Positions 26,968 through 35,721 of a DNA stretch of 56,352 nt are shown piece after piece. Positions within the stretch are counted from its first letter, which is position 1. Each line of letters begins with the position of its first letter. Below the pieces are notes generated by a model. The model was not told the DNA's origin and did not search any database. It saw only the letters and a program-made list of their open reading frames with translations. Source of the stretch: Planctomycetota bacterium (GTDB lineage Bacteria; Planctomycetota; Phycisphaerae; WQYP01); NCBI GenBank assembly GCA_021785435.1, contig JAJYFE010000005.1:1-56352 (forward strand), given 5' to 3'. The position numbers and the translations under genes are program-made.

Positions 26968-28272
26968 TCACCACGCCTCTTGTTTCGCGGCGTAGCTGGG
27001 ATTCACGATTCGTATCGGCATCATGCAGACATCAAACGGGGCGCCCAGTGTCATAATCGGAGGGGGGACAACTTGGTAGTATGGGTCGTTCATGGCCTCG
27101 TATTGCAGCTGGCTGGTATCCGTGGCGCCATTGACCGGGACGACCGGGTTACCATTGTAGTTGTGGAACGTGAAAATGTTGTCGCCGTCTTGGCCCACGT
27201 AAGGCGAAATTTCCCAGGTCACGTGATCGTCACCGAAGCCGACATTCTGGCCGTCGCCGGCGTGATTGCCGGAGTTGTAAATATAGGGGCCATAAGTATT
27301 GGCCGTCGGCAGCGTGGCGACGGCCCGCTGGTACACGCCCATGCCCGGACCGTCGCCAGTGGGTCCCCACCCCCACGGCCCGGTGCCATTCTCCGGCGAC
27401 ATGTCGCTGACCAGGGGAACTTGGGTGTTGGCGCCGTTGGTGGTCCACCACTGACCCACGGGGCCGGGGACGCCCGAACTTATGACATTCGAAGGGTACG
27501 GGAAAGCGGTGGAATAGCTTATGCCTTGGCCCTCCTTGCTGGTTACATAGCCGCCGACGGAGCTGTAGGCGCCGGAGCCGGGCACCAAGCCAAAGTTGCT
27601 GAAGTATGCGGGAACTCCCGCATTTTTATAGTATTCCTCGGATGGGCCGAACGCCAAGGGGTCCGACGGGCAGATGAACGTCGCCGGGGTGGCATAGCCC
27701 TGGAGCACCAATATCCACAAGCCCGCCAGCGTGTCGACCATGCTTCCCGGATGCGAACTCTTGTACCAATCTTGCACCACGTTGGCGGCGGCGCCGGCCT
27801 CGGTGGGGACGTAGCCATAGGCGTTGTCGGGCGCGTAGTCGACGGCGCCCCCGCCGTAAGCTCCCGTAGCCGCGGACGCATTGGCGGTCGCCGGGAACGT
27901 GCCGTAGTTGCTGTTCGCGTACGTGGTCATCGCCTGGATGATCCCGCGGATGTTGGCCATGCACACCGCCCGGTTGGCCAGTTCCCGGGCCTTGGCCAAG
28001 GCTGGTAAAAGTATAGATATCAATATAGCTATAATTGATATCACCACCAGCAGCTCGATCAGCGTGAACGCGGCGCGTTTAGTTCGCGCCGGGCGCAGGC
28101 GGGCATCGAGGGCGGCCAGGAGCGGGGCGTCGGTGTAATCGCCGGGACGCCACGCGCCTGAACCGTCCAGCCCGGCGGGCCGCAGTTCCGCCACGGCGGC
28201 TCGCCTTGTCGAGTCGCCCTCTTCGGCGACTTCGGCCGCCAGGGCCAGCAGGTTGACTTGGGAAGCACTCAT
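26968..28272 (-). CDS. DUF1559-type prepilin-like protein with long repeat-containing leader
   Basis: A 434-residue protein with a type IV prepilin/pseudopilin signature, [19 protein letters not shown] (Phe69 at the presumed cleavage site, Ala at -1), then a long hydrophobic helix and a Gly/Ser/Tyr-rich exported domain. Near the C-terminus, [12 protein letters not shown] resembles the H-x9-DG region of DUF1559 proteins, abundant in Planctomycetota. The leader before the cleavage site is 68 residues, against the usual 6-26. Residues 14-25 ([12 protein letters not shown]) are encoded by a dispersed palindromic repeat. The ATG at 28272 has AAGGAGA 5 nt upstream. In-frame ATGs at 28350 and 28443 have equally good SDs and would give 460- and 491-residue forms. 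Confidence 0.85.
28199..28230 (-). repeat. palindromic repeat family A inside the prepilin reading frame
   Basis: A 32-nt copy of the module CTCGCCTTGTCGAGTCGCCC plus TCTTCGGCGAC, the same sequence that forms the ends of the MITE-like units at 36521-36745 and 55997-56254. It is read in frame as part of the prepilin leader. Confidence 0.9.
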
Positions 28273-28535
28273 GAAAGTCTCCTTACAAAAAGAGGGAACA
28301 ATCCCGCCCATCCGCGGTTTCAGGTTTTCAGCGCCTTGGGAACCATTCATGGAAGTCTCCTGTAAAAAATGGACCACAATCTTTACGCCAGCCGTCGAGG
28401 GCGACGGCTCTACATGGGAATTGATGCCTTGTGGCACTTCCATGGAAATCTCCTTAAAAAAAAAGGGGGAACAATGTCACCCGTTGGCGGTCTTGTGTTT
28501 CCAGTTTTCGATGCATCGAACACGGTAAACTCCTT
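28272..28535 (-). promoter_or_regulatory. four tandem ribosome-binding/start modules ahead of the prepilin
   Basis: Four copies of one module lie in tandem on the minus strand. Each has a run of 5-9 T, an SD (AAGGAGT, AAGGAGA, CAGGAGA, AAGGAGA), exactly 5 nt, and a start codon: GTG 28523, ATG 28443, ATG 28350, ATG 28272. Spacings are 80, 93 and 78 nt. The last three are in frame with the prepilin and begin alike (MEVPQG, MNGSQG, MSASQV). The first opens a 37-codon frame ending at 28410. A family D hairpin (28390-28418) sits in the second unit. The whole looks like repeated duplication of a 5' gene end. Confidence 0.85.
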
Positions 28536-28561
28536 ACAAAAAAAGCCAACGCTTTCATAAT

Positions 28562-28580
28562 AGCCCCGGGGCCCGGGGCT
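28562..28580. terminator. GC palindrome between the DUF4838 gene and the prepilin leader
   Basis: AGCCCCGGGGCCCGGGGCT is a near-perfect 19-nt palindrome about 60 nt after the DUF4838 stop. It could form a strong hairpin. A run of seven T follows only 25 nt later, so it does not look like a standard intrinsic terminator. Confidence 0.4.
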
Positions 28581-28583
28581 TGT

Positions 28584-28621
28584 CTTTAGCAATTTTGATA
28601 ACGGATGTCACAGTCTTAAAC
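28584..28621 (-). promoter_or_regulatory. second AraC-operator-like site
   Basis: On the plus strand CTTTAGCAATTTTGATAA is followed by TGTCAC and TCTT. It aligns with the site at the araC gene (CTTTAGCGATCCTGATAA, then TTTCAC and TCTT), about 26 of 34 positions alike. It lies downstream of the DUF4838 stop and about 60 nt ahead of the prepilin start modules, so the local AraC regulator may also act on the prepilin. Confidence 0.5.
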
Positions 28622-28639
28622 ACAGCGCCGGCCCCCTTT

Positions 28640-30583
28640 TCAAGGCCTTGGGAGCTTGCGGCCCCAGGCTTGCATGACCCGGGCGATGGAACCGTACCCG
28701 GCCGGCCCGTTGTCGAACACCCAGCCGCCCTTGAAACTCCGGATAAATGTTTCCAAGCCGTCCAATTCCTGTCTGGCCCGCCGAAACTTGCCCTGCGCGC
28801 GCCGATCCAGGAAACGGCGGGTGCGCAGAGCCACCTGATAGCCCGCCCAGACGCCTTCCAGGCGTTGGGCGTACAGATGGCGGCCCCGAACCAGCGCCCG
28901 GGCCCGGGCCATATCGCGCCCCAGTTTCCGAAGCAGCGCGTCCGTGAAAAGATTCCACGCGCCCCAGCCGCCGCTGTAGAAATGGCCCCCGCCTTCCGCC
29001 GCCTTTTCCATGGCCTGGTAATACCGCTTCATGGGCGCCGCGGCGGGGCCGAAATAATTCTGGTAGTACCGGTCCAATTCCTTGTGGACGTTCATATTGG
29101 GATTCCACAGGAGCTGGCCGTACATATACAGGTCCAGCCCCTGCGGCCCCCAGCTCGGGTGCGACTCCAGGTACACTCCATCCACGTGGTAACGGCGGTA
29201 GGCGCGCAAGCGATTCACCATGGTATGAATAATGGGCAGCGGGCCGTACCAGCAGTAACCGGACCAATATTCGTAGGTCATCAGGGGCGGCCTCGTCAGC
29301 CGGGCATAACCCTTCAGGACCTTGAGGAAATTCGCGTTCCCCGGGCTGGACGGATCGGTCAGGCTTCTGGAATAATCGCTGTAGGATGCGGTGTAGGCGG
29401 CAGCCTGCACCACCAGGTTCGGCGCCAGTGAATGGACCAGGCTGGGGACCCCGGTGTACTCGGAATAGGCGAGGCAGCCGATCCTGGCCCAAGGCACTGC
29501 CTTGGCCACCAGGCGGGCCACAATATTATTGAATTCGCAGACGCGATTAGACATCGACACGCCGCCGTAGGGACTTTTTTGGCCGGGATCGTCCATGGCT
29601 CTGGACTTCGGGCCTTGGCTAAAGAGTCCCAAGTTATCCTGCGGGGTGATGGAAAAAATCCGCTGTTCGGGATTGGCCTTGGCCTCGGCGATAATTTGGG
29701 CGGCCACCAGTTTTTGTACGGCCCGGTTGGCCAAGTCCAGTTGTCCATTGGGGTCGCGTCGGCCATTGATTAAAGCGAAATAGTTCGGATGTTTGGCGAA
29801 ATATTCCTGGGGCGGCACCAGCTGGTCGTAACTGCCGTCCCCAAAATTCACCCAAAAGCAACCGCCGTATTTTGTGATGAGGCCCGCCTGGCCGGTATTG
29901 ACCAGGTCAACATTCAAGCGACTGCGCACCGCCCACAGGCGGGCCATGGCGCGCTGCCGGGCCGTTTCGTCCTGCCACTCCACGTATTTTCTGATTCCCC
30001 AGCGATATTTATACGCGGGGCGATACGTCTTGCGGCCCAGCGGCAGAACAATCCGTTTCAATTTTGGCACATATTCGCCCCAGCGCTCGGGCCGATACCA
30101 GCGCACGCCGAGGCTTTCCAGAAACTGGTACACGCCGTACAACGTGCCGCGTTCCTGAACAAAGACCTGCCCTTGCGCTTTGACCGTCGGGCCAATGCCG
30201 CCGGCGATGCGCAGGCGATGGGGGCTTACGGCGATGGCGAAAGAGTCCGGCCCCAGCTTTTGCCAACCCAGGCCGCGGTTGTAGGGATGCGGGCCAAGGA
30301 TAATCAGCGGGGCGCCGACCGGTGTGGCGGTCCGCGCGATTTTCAACTTTTTACCCGTGATTCGCCGCAGGTAAGTCCGCAACTGCCGCGCCGCGAAGTT
30401 TTCCACCGGCGTCGGCGAAACCGGCAGCACGATCACCGGCGTGCGATGGGCGCCCAGCAGGACCATCGATGAACGGGCGGCCGCGGGTGGCGCCGCAACC
30501 GCCTGGCGGCAGGCGCCGCCCGCGAACAGCATCGCCAGCAGGGCGCCAGCGACGCGGAAATAGGGTTGGCAGGTGTACCGCAT
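28640..30583 (-). CDS. secreted DUF4838 protein (glycosidase-like)
   Basis: A 647-residue exported protein. Residues 1-31 form a signal peptide; Cys25 in FAGGAC could also be lipidated, but the lipobox is poor. Residues 45-165 (VIVLPVSPTPVENFAARQL to FLESLGVRWYRP) resemble the alpha/beta N-terminal domain found before family 67/20-type glycosidases. The rest is DUF4838 (RKYVEWQDE, RIFSITPQDN, IGCLAYSEYT, MTYEYWSGY, YLESHPSWGPQGLDLY). The family is seen with polysaccharide-degrading genes and is presumed to act on glycans; no substrate is proven here. AGGAGGA lies 7 nt before the ATG. It is divergent from the AraC gene and presumably under its control. Confidence 0.87.
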   Translation of the reverse strand: MRYTCQPYFRVAGALLAMLFAGGACRQAVAAPPAAARSSMVLLGAHRTPVIVLPVSPTPVENFAARQLRTYLRRITGKKLKIARTATPVGAPLIILGPHPYNRGLGWQKLGPDSFAIAVSPHRLRIAGGIGPTVKAQGQVFVQERGTLYGVYQFLESLGVRWYRPERWGEYVPKLKRIVLPLGRKTYRPAYKYRWGIRKYVEWQDETARQRAMARLWAVRSRLNVDLVNTGQAGLITKYGGCFWVNFGDGSYDQLVPPQEYFAKHPNYFALINGRRDPNGQLDLANRAVQKLVAAQIIAEAKANPEQRIFSITPQDNLGLFSQGPKSRAMDDPGQKSPYGGVSMSNRVCEFNNIVARLVAKAVPWARIGCLAYSEYTGVPSLVHSLAPNLVVQAAAYTASYSDYSRSLTDPSSPGNANFLKVLKGYARLTRPPLMTYEYWSGYCWYGPLPIIHTMVNRLRAYRRYHVDGVYLESHPSWGPQGLDLYMYGQLLWNPNMNVHKELDRYYQNYFGPAAAPMKRYYQAMEKAAEGGGHFYSGGWGAWNLFTDALLRKLGRDMARARALVRGRHLYAQRLEGVWAGYQVALRTRRFLDRRAQGKFRRARQELDGLETFIRSFKGGWVFDNGPAGYGSIARVMQAWGRKLPRP

Positions 30584-30637
30584 GGTTTGGTCCTCCTATC
30601 TTGTTTCGATTCATCCACCCGGTGCGGCGGCTGGTTC

Positions 30638-30665
30638 TTGTTCCGATCGCACGGCTTGGTATGAT
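30638..30665 (+). promoter_or_regulatory. candidate promoter of the AraC-type gene
   Basis: TTGTTC, a 16-nt spacer and TATGAT, in the 141-bp gap between the divergent DUF4838 and AraC genes. The start of transcription would fall near 30672, upstream of the direct-repeat operator. Confidence 0.4.
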
Positions 30666-30693
30666 AATAAACAATGAAGGCGTGCGCCTTTAG

Positions 30694-30725
30694 CGATCCT
30701 GATAATATATTTCACGATCTTGATA
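30694..30725 (+). promoter_or_regulatory. AraC-type direct-repeat operator
   Basis: Two direct half-sites, CGATCCTGATA (30694-30704) and CGATCTTGATA (30715-30725), begin 21 bp apart, two helical turns, as expected for an AraC-family dimer. The second half-site touches the ATG at 30725. Binding downstream of the presumed promoter would favour self-repression, and it could also act on the divergent DUF4838 gene. Confidence 0.6.
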
Positions 30726-31702
30726 TGACCAGCCCAGCTAAATCGCCGGTTTCCGTCGTGCGGCCCGCCGGGGCGGTGCACGGGCCCCCGGTGCGACCAG
30801 TGCCGTCCGTGGGTTGCGACCGGGCGGTTATGACGAGCTTCGCCGCGGTGGGCGAAGTGCCGGTGCGACAAGTGCTGTACTGCGATCGTTACTCGCGTCC
30901 GCCCAGTGGCGCCCTGGTCGTCAGCGACGGGTACCCGGGCCATCTGCTGCAACTGGCGGTCAGCGGTCGCGTGGAGTACGAGGTGGCCGGGCGTACCTAC
31001 CTGCTGCGGCCGGGCGACTTAATCTGGCACCACGAGCTCGAGACGGTCAAGCGGCGCGTCTTGACGGGGCAGTGGGAATGCTACAGCGTGAATTTTCTGG
31101 CGCCGGATTTGCCGCCGCCGCCGTTCGATCGGCGGGTGCGCCATGTCAGCCCGGCGATCGAGCGCCGCTTCGCCGCGCTGCTGGCGGCTTGGCGGCAAAC
31201 GGCCGCGCTGCCGGTGGTGCGTTTGCTGCGCGTCCATGCGGCCTTAGGCGAGTTGTTGGCGGATCTATTGGCGGGCTCGTCCGCGCCAACTCCCGAAAGC
31301 GGCTTCCGCACGGACGAGCCGGCCTTGTTGTGGTGGCAAATCGAAGAGCGCCTGCGCCACAAGCTCGCCGGGCCGATGACCACGCGGCGAATCGCCGAAA
31401 TAGCCGGCTACAGTTTCGCCACAGTCAACTCCGCTTGTCATGCCGCGACGGGTCAATCGCCGATGAAGCGCTTTAAGCACCTTCGCCTGAGCCTGGCCCG
31501 CAGCCTGGTGGAACGCTCGCGGATGAAATTTTGGGAAATCGCCGAGCATGTCGGTTACGAACTGCAGCATCAGTTCAGCCGCGACTACCATAAAGCGTTC
31601 GGCGCCGCGCCGCGCGACCACCGCCGCGCGGCTGCTGGGCAGGGGCCCGAGGGGGGCGGGGGCCGACGGAGCCAGGCTCAAGCGCAAAGGCGCGGCGGGT
31701 AG
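30725..31702 (+). CDS. AraC-family transcriptional regulator
   Basis: A 325-residue regulator. An N-terminal cupin-like sensor (LQLAVSGRVEYEVAGRTYLL, then RPGDLIW) probably binds a sugar. The C-terminal HTH_18 domain shows MTTRRIAEIAGYSFATVN and FWEIAEHVGYELQHQFSRDY with the typical second helix-turn-helix ending KAFGAAP. I start it at the ATG at 30725, because the frame's first 17 codons (from 30674) coincide with the operator sequence. An ATG at 30830 is a shorter option. It lies between the divergent DUF4838 gene and the URO-D/GH4 genes, so it probably controls this carbohydrate locus. Confidence 0.88.
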   Translation: MTSPAKSPVSVVRPAGAVHGPPVRPVPSVGCDRAVMTSFAAVGEVPVRQVLYCDRYSRPPSGALVVSDGYPGHLLQLAVSGRVEYEVAGRTYLLRPGDLIWHHELETVKRRVLTGQWECYSVNFLAPDLPPPPFDRRVRHVSPAIERRFAALLAAWRQTAALPVVRLLRVHAALGELLADLLAGSSAPTPESGFRTDEPALLWWQIEERLRHKLAGPMTTRRIAEIAGYSFATVNSACHAATGQSPMKRFKHLRLSLARSLVERSRMKFWEIAEHVGYELQHQFSRDYHKAFGAAPRDHRRAAAGQGPEGGGGRRSQAQAQRRGG

Positions 31703-31746: not shown

Positions 31747-31832
31747 GGGCGGCGCTACGGGGGGCTGAAGCGCGAAGTATTTTATTAAAACTGCCAAAGG
31801 CGCGAGCCGCGCCGCAAGCTTATAATTACCAT

Positions 31833-32993
31833 GTGGCCAACACGCTTACTTATCCGCCGATCACGCCGCTTGCCGGTATTCATGTCTGGACGGAGCGGCT
31901 TGAACACATCGCCGGCCAGCCGCTGGAATTTTGCCCGGATTTTCCCGCCATTACACGGAGGTTCGAAGCCTGGTGGGCGCACGAGTTGATCGACCGCCCG
32001 ATTTTCATCGCCGCAGCCAATACGAATCCAGGCCGGCCCATCAATCGCCGGCTCGAGCTGCTGGAAAATCCCCAGGCCTGGCTCGCGGCGAAGCTGGCTG
32101 ACCTGCGGCAGACCCATCGGGTGGGCGACGCGTTGCCCCACGTCCGTGTGGATTTCGGCCCCGTGCTGCTCGGCGGAATGCTCGGCGGTAAGACCGAGTT
32201 CGGCGCTGACACAACCTGGACGCACTCGTTTATCCATGACGATTGGTCGAACGCGCCGGACTGGACGCTGCGTCCGGACAATCAGCTTTGGGTGTTGTTA
32301 CGCCAACTGTTGCGGCTCGCGGCAAAGGACGCGAAGGGGCGATACCTGGTGTGCACCCCGGACCTGGGCGGATCGGCCGACGTGTTGCTCAACCTCCGCG
32401 GCTCAGCGCCATTATGCTTGGACACCGTGGAGCAGCCGGAACGCGTGCGTGGCGCCCTGGAGGCCATTTATCCCGCCTGGCGCCGGGCGTTCACGGAGAT
32501 GAATCGCATCCCGCTCGAAAGCGGCGCCGGCGTCATTCACTGGCTGGGGCTTTGGTCAAACCGCCCTTATATGATCCCGGCCTGTGATTTTAGTTTCATG
32601 ATCGGCCCCGCCGAATTTCGGCGACTATGTTGGCCCGACATCGCGCGCCAGGCCGCCACGGTGGGCCGGGCGGTCTTTCACCTCGATGGCCCCGGCGCGG
32701 CGCGGCACGTGGATGCGCTCCTTGAGGTACCGGACATCCAGGCCATCCAGTTCACGCCCGGTACGGGAACGCCGTCGGCGCTGGCGTGGGTGGATATGTT
32801 CCGGAAAATTCAAGAACACGGTCGCTCCATGCTGGTGATCTGCCCCGCCGACGAAGTGTTATCCTTGTGCGACGCGCTGCGTCCTGAAGGATTGGCCATC
32901 CTTATCGTGGATGCGCTAACGCCCGAAGCACTGGACGAACTATTCGCCGGATTCGAGAAAAAGTTCCTGAACGGAAAAGGATCCATGCCGTGA
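31833..32993 (+). CDS. URO-D-like (uroporphyrinogen decarboxylase family) protein
   Basis: A 386-residue member of the URO-D superfamily, which also holds methyltransferase-like enzymes and planctomycetal homologues of unknown role. Segments such as FSFMIGPAEFRRLCWPDI, FHLDGPGAARHVDAL and IQAIQFTPGTGTPSA fit the C-terminal half of the barrel. Haem synthesis is unlikely: the genes around it are for glycan use, and such URO-D relatives often sit in sugar loci. I start it at a GTG at 31833; TATAAT ends 6 nt before it and there is no SD, so a leaderless start is possible. The open frame reaches back to 31548 through the AraC end. Its TGA overlaps a GTG of the GH4 gene. Confidence 0.75.
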   Translation: MANTLTYPPITPLAGIHVWTERLEHIAGQPLEFCPDFPAITRRFEAWWAHELIDRPIFIAAANTNPGRPINRRLELLENPQAWLAAKLADLRQTHRVGDALPHVRVDFGPVLLGGMLGGKTEFGADTTWTHSFIHDDWSNAPDWTLRPDNQLWVLLRQLLRLAAKDAKGRYLVCTPDLGGSADVLLNLRGSAPLCLDTVEQPERVRGALEAIYPAWRRAFTEMNRIPLESGAGVIHWLGLWSNRPYMIPACDFSFMIGPAEFRRLCWPDIARQAATVGRAVFHLDGPGAARHVDALLEVPDIQAIQFTPGTGTPSALAWVDMFRKIQEHGRSMLVICPADEVLSLCDALRPEGLAILIVDALTPEALDELFAGFEKKFLNGKGSMP

Positions 32994-33028
32994 GTCGTTC
33001 CGGGCGGCGGAAAAGGGAGTTGGGCCAT

Positions 33029-34375
33029 ATGGGCCGTCTTAGTCAACTAAAAATAGTTCTCATTGGCGGCGGCAGCGTCAATTGGGCCCCCAACATCGTC
33101 CGCGACATGTTGCTGACGCCATCCCTGTGCAACTCGGAATTTGTTCTCCTTGATATTGACCAGGCGGCCGGCGATTTAACGAAGGCCTTTCTCCAAAAAC
33201 TGGCGACGGGGCTCGGCGCCAAGGCCCGGTTCGAGTCCACCACGCAGCCGTCCGCGCTGGCCGGGGCCGATTACGTGCTGATCACCATCTCCACCGGCGG
33301 TTTGGAAGCCATGGCGCACGATCTGAGGATTCCCGAAAAATATAGCGTCTTCCACACGGTCGGCGACACCTGCGGCCCCGGGGGTTGGGCGAGAACCATC
33401 CGCAATTTCCAGGTTTTCGACGATCTGTCCAAGCGGATCAACCGCTATGCCCCTGGCGCCATGGTGCTCAACTACAGCAACCCGATGACCACCCTGACCG
33501 ACGTCCTGGCGCGACGCTGCCAGGGACCTGTGATCGGTCTGTGCCACGGCCTGTTCGAAAATTTGGAATTCATCAAGGGCCTCTATAAGCTCGACCGCGA
33601 GGAAGACATTACCCTTCGCTATGGGGGGCTTAATCATTTTTTTTGGTGCACCAGCGTCCGGGCCCGGGATATCGACGTGCTGGCGGATTTGAAACGCCGG
33701 CTGCCGCGGGGCGGCTTCACCCGCCTGCTCAGCCACCTGAGGCGCGACGCCGCGGGTTTTGGCTCGGAAAACCGCGAAGTGGCGACGGAGCTGTTTCAGG
33801 TGACCGGGACGATGCCGTACCTTGGCGACCGGCATACGTGCGAATTCTTTTCCTGCTACCTCACCGACCGGCGGAATCTGAAGAAATACAAACTGGTGCG
33901 CACCACCATCGCCCAGCGGCGGCGGATGGCCCTGCGAAGGCGACGCGAGATCGAGCGCCTGGCGCGCACGACCCCGGACCCGAGCTATCATCAGCGAACG
34001 CGTGAAACCGCCGCCGACATTATCGACGCCCACGTCCGGGGGAGGAGTTTTATCGACGTTGGCAACACGCCCAACCGGGGGCAGATTGCCAATCTGCCGC
34101 GCGGCCTGGTGGTGGAGACGGCGGTGCGCGTCGATGGTACGGGCGTAACCCCGCTGACCTTCGGTGAATTGCCGGAGCTCATCGCTGGTTTCGTGCAACC
34201 GCACGCGCAGGCGTTTGGAATGGTCGTGGACGCCTGTCGGCACGGCAACCGCAGCTTGGCCGTTCAGGCGTTGCGTCTGGATCCACTGTGCGCTCATCTT
34301 ACCGGCGAGCAGGTCCGGCGGTTGGCCGATGAATTGCTCGGGGCGCATCGTTCTTACATTCGGTGTTTTGGCTGA
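33029..34375 (+). CDS. glycoside hydrolase family 4 enzyme (alpha-galactosidase/glucosidase-like)
   Basis: A 448-residue NAD+- and Mn2+-dependent glycosidase of family GH4. The Rossmann motif IGGGSVNWAP is at residues 12-21, NYSNPM at 148-153, and metal ligands Cys172 (GLCHG) and His203 (GLNHFFW) match Thermotoga GH4 enzymes. GH4 acts on alpha-galactosides, alpha-glucosides or glucuronides by an oxidation-elimination path; the SVNW variant resembles alpha-galactosidase/galacturonase members. The ATG at 33029 has AGGGAG 9 nt upstream. A GTG at 32990 overlapping the preceding TGA, with AAAGGA upstream, is a serious alternative that adds 13 basic residues. It is cytoplasmic and probably coupled to the URO-D gene. 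Confidence 0.9.
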   Translation: MGRLSQLKIVLIGGGSVNWAPNIVRDMLLTPSLCNSEFVLLDIDQAAGDLTKAFLQKLATGLGAKARFESTTQPSALAGADYVLITISTGGLEAMAHDLRIPEKYSVFHTVGDTCGPGGWARTIRNFQVFDDLSKRINRYAPGAMVLNYSNPMTTLTDVLARRCQGPVIGLCHGLFENLEFIKGLYKLDREEDITLRYGGLNHFFWCTSVRARDIDVLADLKRRLPRGGFTRLLSHLRRDAAGFGSENREVATELFQVTGTMPYLGDRHTCEFFSCYLTDRRNLKKYKLVRTTIAQRRRMALRRRREIERLARTTPDPSYHQRTRETAADIIDAHVRGRSFIDVGNTPNRGQIANLPRGLVVETAVRVDGTGVTPLTFGELPELIAGFVQPHAQAFGMVVDACRHGNRSLAVQALRLDPLCAHLTGEQVRRLADELLGAHRSYIRCFG

Positions 34376-34546: not shown

Positions 34547-35476
34547 ATGCGCGTTTTGATCATCGGGGGAACGGGACATATCGGCGTTTTTCTTACCAAA
34601 ATGCTGGCGGACGACGGAAATGAGGTCACCGTAGTCTCAACCGGGCGCACCATGACCGACGTGGGCGCCCTCCGCGGCGTCCACCTGGCCAGGATGGATT
34701 ACCGGCAGGCTCTCGACGATGGCACGTTCATCAAGCTCCTAAAGGAGAGCAATATTGAGGCGGTGGTGGATATACTGCAGAGCCACAGCGCCTTGGTATA
34801 CGATGCCTGCCGCAAGTCAGGAGTGGCGCAACTCGTCGCGTGCGGATCCGTCTGGATGTTCGGTCGACCGAAGGTGGTGCCCACACCGGAAGTCGACCAG
34901 GGAGGCAATCCGTTTGGCGGCTATAGGCAGAGGTTCGCGGAGATGCTGGAGGTGATGCATCGGTCGAAGCGCGACGGCTTTCCCTTCACCGGCATCATGC
35001 CTCCGAACATCTGCGGGCCAGGCAAGATCCCGCTGGAGGGGGCGGGCGGAAGGTCCATTGAGGTTCATCGGGCGCATCAGAGGGGCGAAGAGGTTGTGTT
35101 GCCGTTCCCCCGTACGAACCTTATCGGTCCCTGCGACGCCGAAGACGTCGCACGCGGGTTCCACGGCGCGCTGCGCAACCGCCAAGCCGCGGCGGGGGAG
35201 ATTTTCAATGTCGGTTCCGCCTATGCGCTGACGACGGAGAAGTTCATTGCAACCTACAGCGGGATTTATGGGTCAAGGATACCTGTCCGCTACGTCCCGG
35301 CGGAAATATACACAAGGGATATATCTCCCGAAATAGGCGCGCACTTCCATTTCATCGAGCCTATGTGCCCGGACATCTCCAAAATCTCCTCCCGTCTCGG
35401 ATACAAGCCCAAGTACACGCCGGAAGAGACCATGGCGCGGGCGGTGGGATGGATGCGCGAGAAGGGGATGCTGTAA
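34547..35476 (+). CDS. NAD-dependent epimerase/dehydratase (atypical extended SDR)
   Basis: A 309-residue extended short-chain dehydrogenase-like protein. The N-terminal GGTGHIGVFL binds NAD(P). The C-terminal half has PPNICGPGKIPLEG and FNVGSAYALTTEKF, usual in sugar epimerases. The catalytic YxxxK is not seen: the best match is YRQRF (about residue 128), so the lysine is missing and the reaction may differ. The SD is weak (AGGGG, 12 nt). It is separated from GH4 by 171 bp with no recognised feature, and probably belongs to the same sugar-use unit. Confidence 0.8.
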   Translation: MRVLIIGGTGHIGVFLTKMLADDGNEVTVVSTGRTMTDVGALRGVHLARMDYRQALDDGTFIKLLKESNIEAVVDILQSHSALVYDACRKSGVAQLVACGSVWMFGRPKVVPTPEVDQGGNPFGGYRQRFAEMLEVMHRSKRDGFPFTGIMPPNICGPGKIPLEGAGGRSIEVHRAHQRGEEVVLPFPRTNLIGPCDAEDVARGFHGALRNRQAAAGEIFNVGSAYALTTEKFIATYSGIYGSRIPVRYVPAEIYTRDISPEIGAHFHFIEPMCPDISKISSRLGYKPKYTPEETMARAVGWMREKGML

Positions 35477-35566: not shown

Positions 35567-35596
35567 TCTGTTCCACCTGTAATGAGGGGTGGACGG
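35567..35596 (+). repeat. family E repeat
   Basis: Thirty nucleotides identical to 21464-21493, beginning TCTGTTCCACC and ending GGGTGGACGG, with internal TCCACC/GGTGGA complementarity. It runs directly into the long hairpin at 35594-35691. Confidence 0.85.
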
Positions 35597-35691
35597 AGGG
35601 CCGTGTGGCCGCAGGCGCGAAGCGAGGAGGATGGCGTATGGGTGCATACGCCGACGACGAGCGACAAAGCCTGCGGCCACACGGCCCTCCG
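35594..35691. repeat. long two-stage hairpin
   Basis: The arms 35594-35616 and 35669-35691 are perfect 23-bp inverted repeats (left arm begins CGGAGGGCCGTGTGGCC). Inside them is a second perfect inverted pair, GGCGTATG (35633-35640) and CATACGCC (35645-35652). A transcript could form a hairpin of about 98 nt with an inner stem. A further repeat, CGGTCGCCTCCTTCGGCGACCG (35698-35719), has been split here for length only and is itself a perfect hairpin of family A. Confidence 0.85.
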
Positions 35692-35721
35692 CCCACCGGT
35701 CGCCTCCTTCGGCGACCGGCA

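Follow-up and report, generated by a model that had tools for sequence, protein, structure and literature searches.

Background

In activating AraC-type proteins the proximal half-site of the operator lies on the -35 region, and in E. coli araI the half-sites are spaced by 21 bp and overlap with the -35. Binding of E. coli AraC to the adjacent half-sites I1-I2 results in activation (PMC4486848). For AraC-family sugar regulators elsewhere, tandem repeats located 5' of promoter elements were interpreted as activator sites (PMC8579813). The planctomycete Rhodopirellula baltica encodes 74 DUF1559 proteins (PMC2754498). In the literature we found no sugar-regulator operator described for DUF1559 proteins of Planctomycetes, no paper joining DUF1559 or prepilins with AraC in Planctomycetes and none joining PhyH, URO-D and AraC.

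Here, a DNA stretch of 56,352 nucleotides from an uncultured planctomycete (contig JAJYFE010000005.1; referred to as the window) was analyzed, all evidence being sequence comparison of metagenome assemblies. A local AraC-type activator regulon that would cover an enzyme and a prepilin is well supported by these comparisons.

Gene content of the locus

The features of the locus are listed in Table 1. The start of the regulator gene was selected by alignment with orthologues; the frame is likewise open from an ATG further 5', at 30725. The regulator carries a C-terminal double helix-turn-helix as in AraC/XylS transcription regulators (HTH_18/HTH_AraC; HTH_18 above the cut-off with an E-value of 3.8e-13) and a weak match to an N-terminal cupin-type ligand domain (AraC_binding, 19.7 bits compared to a cut-off of 21.1). 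An assignment as E. coli AraC proper, i.e., the arabinose regulator, was rejected (PRK10572, 34.9 bits compared to a cut-off of 208). The regulator gene is divergent from the DUF4838 gene, the domain of which matches with 145.9 bits (cut-off 26.6) and the product of which is a predicted sugar-degrading enzyme. The URO-D-like gene shows no Pfam match of its own, and it is probably leaderless as an in-frame GTG follows 7 nt past the TATAAT hexamer (window 31821-31835). Past the 3' end of the epimerase gene, at window 35590-35700, lies a long inverted repeat of high GC content (GGCCGTGTGGCCGCAGGC ... GCCTGCGGCCACACGGCC).

The prepilin shows the N-terminal cleavage/methylation motif (N_methyl, 29 bits, cut-off 21.2; TIGR02532, 24.6 bits, cut-off 16.3), and its DUF1559 domain scores slightly under the cut-off (PF07596, 21.8 bits compared to 23.3). 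The leader of the prepilin gene (28272-28530, minus strand) contains four similar modules consisting of a T-run, AGGAG and a start codon, with the starts GTG at 28523 and ATG at 28443, 28350 and 28272. The latter three are mutually in frame, so the prepilin could begin at any of them.

Table 1. Positions of genes, operator copies and -10 hexamers in the window.
Feature	Position	Strand	Basis
DUF1559-type prepilin gene, N_methyl signal	26968..28443	-	profile search
-10 hexamer TATTAT, prepilin promoter, 20 nt past O1	28557..28562	-	
Operator O1, 5' of prepilin gene	28583..28620	-	motif scan and matrix
DUF4838 (glycosidase-like) gene	28640..30583	-	profile search
-10 hexamer TATCAT, DUF4838 promoter, 20 nt past O2	30661..30666	-	
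Operator O2, between DUF4838 gene and regulator gene	30687..30724	-	motif scan and matrix
AraC-family regulator gene (HTH_18)	30830..31702	+	profile search; orthologue alignment for start
Operator O3, 5' of URO-D-like/GH4 operon	31763..31800	+	motif scan
-10 hexamer TATAAT, 20 nt past O3	31821..31826	+	
URO-D-like gene, probably leaderless	31833..32993	+	resemblance to URO-D genes adjoining orthologous regulators
GH4 family gene, overlaps 3' end of URO-D-like gene	32990..34375	+	profile search
NAD-dependent epimerase family gene, possible last gene of URO-D-like/GH4 operon	34547..35476	+	

Operator sites in the window

An earlier note on this DNA had described two direct 11-mers at the regulator gene and a related site in front of the prepilin. 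Both 11-mers, CGATCCTGATA at 30694-30704 and CGATCTTGATA at 30715-30725, are present with starts 21 bp apart, and they belong to the same 21-bp repeat as the conserved half-sites of the operator, which are TGCGAAAT and GCTAAAG if read toward the gene. The site 5' of the prepilin (28584) is equally real and shares 26/38 positions with the site at 30688; in 100 simulated 56-kb sequences of intergenic composition the best value was 25, and the best site-pair match in simulated windows was at most 24/38. The consensus of these two sites matches twice in the window and was not found in 100 shuffles. Comparison of the sites revealed a third copy that the earlier note had overlooked, O3, which sits 3' of the regulator gene and 5' of the URO-D-like gene, on the opposite strand to the other two. 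The putative regulon also takes in the URO-D/GH4 operon. Read toward the nearest downstream gene, O1 (AAGACTGTGACATCCGTTATCAAAATTGCTAAAG, prepilin direction), O2 (AAGATCGTGAAATATATTATCAGGATCGCTAAAG, DUF4838 direction) and O3 (GAAGCGCGAAGTATTTTATTAAAACTGCCAAAG, URO-D-like direction) all have the same polarity.

Genome-wide distribution and the paralogous locus

The earlier note had suggested a genome scan with the motif. The three-site consensus, allowing up to three mismatches, gave six matches in the 4.4-Mb genome, three in the window and three on contig C54; the reversed control pattern gave no match in the same scan. All six strong sites surround the only two close paralogues of this regulator in the genome. 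The operator recurs at the C54 locus with the same three gene types, i.e., AraC regulator (70% identity), DUF4838 gene (76%) and prepilin (65%), and the C54 sites precede the DUF4838 gene, a sugar-type MFS transporter gene and the prepilin gene. With a looser and shorter pattern one further site was matched exactly, at C121:36711. This seventh site has a matrix score of 32.7 and a correctly placed -10; it follows a URO-D gene and precedes an ORF that weakly resembles, at a score under the cut-off, the hypothetical glycosyl hydrolase family GHL6. C121 has its own AraC gene, so that this site may serve that protein or another one.

Since the distal half of the prepilin site in the window departs from the consensus (TGTGACAT), it could be a decayed or accidental match, with regulation confined to the DUF4838 and URO-D operons. 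This is very improbable, as with the refined matrix O1 scores 29.3, which is far beyond chance, and its -10 is correctly spaced, while the prepilin site of C54 is the best of all sites (42.0).

Promoter geometry

All six strong sites are oriented toward a gene start, and a -10 hexamer begins 18-20 nt past each of the seven sites, i.e., the six strong ones and the one on C121. The hexamers match on average 4.86 of the six consensus bases, compared to 2.14 in shuffles, and none of 2,000 shuffles was as good; for 25 relatives the mean was 3.96 compared to 2.56, again with 0/2,000. With the -10 at this distance the proximal half-site falls on the -35, and judged from the sequences the orientation of the sites together with the -10 spacing is the geometry of AraC activation.

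From its orientation toward and its spacing from the -10 of the DUF4838 gene it follows that O2 is the promoter-side operator of this divergent gene. The earlier note had proposed one regulator for itself, the DUF4838 gene and the prepilin. The shared operator in the DUF4838/regulator region and in the prepilin leader holds; self-regulation via the site at 30688 found no support, as this site faces the -10 of the DUF4838 gene instead. A control of the regulator itself by O2 is possible on grounds of proximity.

Conservation in related bacteria

Orthologous regulators are encoded in 12 of 397 genomes of the class, and a species-wide collection contains orthologues at 35 loci, mainly in Planctomycetota, Verrucomicrobia and Lentisphaerae. 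A matrix trained solely on the six sites of this genome detected the operator just 5' of the regulator gene in 20 of the 33 testable relatives (p<0.01), in all 20 on the same strand and pointing to the divergent gene; two of these matches, L079 and L088, are low-scoring and may be fortuitous, and the obvious site of L078 falls below the threshold. The refined matrix, which was partly trained on the sites it scores, yields 24-42 at the sites of the relatives, and the control of reversed sequence (505 kb) scores no higher than 14.5. For more distant regulators (e.g., L065, L079, L085, L088, L091) no convincing motif was found. The earlier note had regarded absence of the motif in relatives with the same gene order as evidence against its proposal; the same-genus relative G001 keeps the DUF4838-AraC order and has the operator, as an exact match to the family-wide strict pattern. 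This pattern gave a few scattered matches with two to three mismatches in other genomes, barely above the control, and these were disregarded while the exact G001 site was kept.

The same site is kept beside related regulators in distant bacteria, which makes it very likely that the regulatory link between the regulator and the operator copies is real. This also bears on the possibility that the sites are common to these genes through DNA duplication, either of the locus or of a small repeat, rather than through use by one regulator. The C54 locus and the window locus are indeed clearly paralogous; however, the half-sites and the -10 spacing are kept within unrelated flanking sequence, and the same motif adjoins diverged regulators in three phyla. 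On these grounds an origin by duplication is rejected as scarcely credible.

Most relatives have a single operator, placed without exception at the -35 of the divergent gene, which usually encodes a dioxygenase of the PhyH family or a member of the URO-D family. Control of the URO-D operon therefore probably came first, and this lineage would have gained the DUF4838 and prepilin sites later. An operator 5' of a prepilin was found only at the two loci of this genome, the G001 contig ending short of the position; in L072 and L087, which have prepilins nearby, no operator was found before the prepilin. Across the three phyla (L058-L091) this regulator subfamily is coupled to URO-D-family and PhyH-family genes.

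The protein might alternatively act as a repressor, or as a ligand-dependent activator/repressor that loops between the three operators, which lie within 3.2 kb. E. coli AraC loops between distant sites in the absence of arabinose (PMC4486848). However, the single operator of most relatives at the -35 of the divergent gene is an activator geometry, and we consider looping or repression unlikely.

Proposed model

We consider it probable, with good confidence, that a ligand-responsive AraC activator drives the DUF4838, prepilin and URO-D-like/GH4 targets via the shared operator. The regulator dimer would bind the direct repeat of 21-bp period, with the consensus TGCGAAAT-N14-GCTAAAG read toward the target, the proximal half overlapping the -35 region, and the bound regulator would recruit RNA polymerase. 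The three operator copies would thereby drive the DUF4838 gene, the gene of the pilin-like surface protein and, as a sugar-metabolism operon, the URO-D-like and GH4 genes, possibly together with the epimerase gene, and the C54 locus would do likewise for its DUF4838 gene, MFS transporter gene and prepilin gene. Computation established where the sites lie, how they are oriented and spaced from the -10, and that they are conserved next to the regulator gene, and we infer that this regulator binds them and activates. The ligand may be a sugar or uronide released by the enzymes of the cluster; the locus of one relative carries the tagaturonate epimerase UxaE, which is a hint at uronides. The prepilin may act as a fibre or adhesin.

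Prepilins and regulators in the genome

The 4.4-Mb genome contains about 80 matches to this prepilin, many of them 55-65% identical, and a prepilin is found within 2.5 kb of 14 of the 36 AraC or LacI regulators, where about 3.8 would be expected (binomial P about 8e-6). When the DNA before other AraC-linked prepilins was searched generically for a direct repeat plus a -10, one notable case emerged, C50:11528-11560 (L146:1329-1361), in which TGCGTTAAA occurs twice with a 21-bp period directly before the prepilin; the repeat differs from the window operator, and TATGAT comes next. As this search was insensitive, recovering one of the six known sites, it neither proves nor excludes a general model. 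The 14 regulators beside prepilins together with the C50 repeat suggest that regulator-controlled prepilins may be the general rule. More tentatively, and rather doubtful at present, the prepilins of these planctomycetes (about 80 per genome) could be surface modules specific for particular substrates, with the local sugar regulator of each gene cluster turning on its own prepilin, comparable to the surface glycan-binding proteins of Bacteroidetes polysaccharide loci; if so, this locus would be one worked example.

Comparison with known systems

The locus provides a concrete candidate operator for a regulator subfamily of Planctomycetota, Verrucomicrobia and Lentisphaerae, in which few regulons have been reconstructed. 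It would link a probable member of the large and functionally obscure DUF1559 prepilin family to a sugar-type regulon, suggesting when and why these prepilins are made. In analogy to other planctomycete DUF1559 proteins, the prepilin would belong to a large family, and a prepilin signal is present here.

As in E. coli AraC/araBAD (I1-I2), an AraC-type HTH protein is encoded divergently from a target, and as in araI the direct-repeat half-sites are one 21-bp period apart over the -35. In contrast to E. coli AraC, the half-site sequence is another one, nothing in the sequence points to arabinose as ligand, a prepilin is among the predicted targets and three operators occur in one locus. AraC-family sugar regulons reconstructed by comparative genomics, e.g., in Caldicellulosiruptor, share the local regulator and the tandem-repeat sites 5' of the promoter elements of sugar genes (PMC8579813); in contrast to these, the present regulators occur in other phyla, pilin-like genes are added, and the ancestral target is probably a URO-D/PhyH gene.
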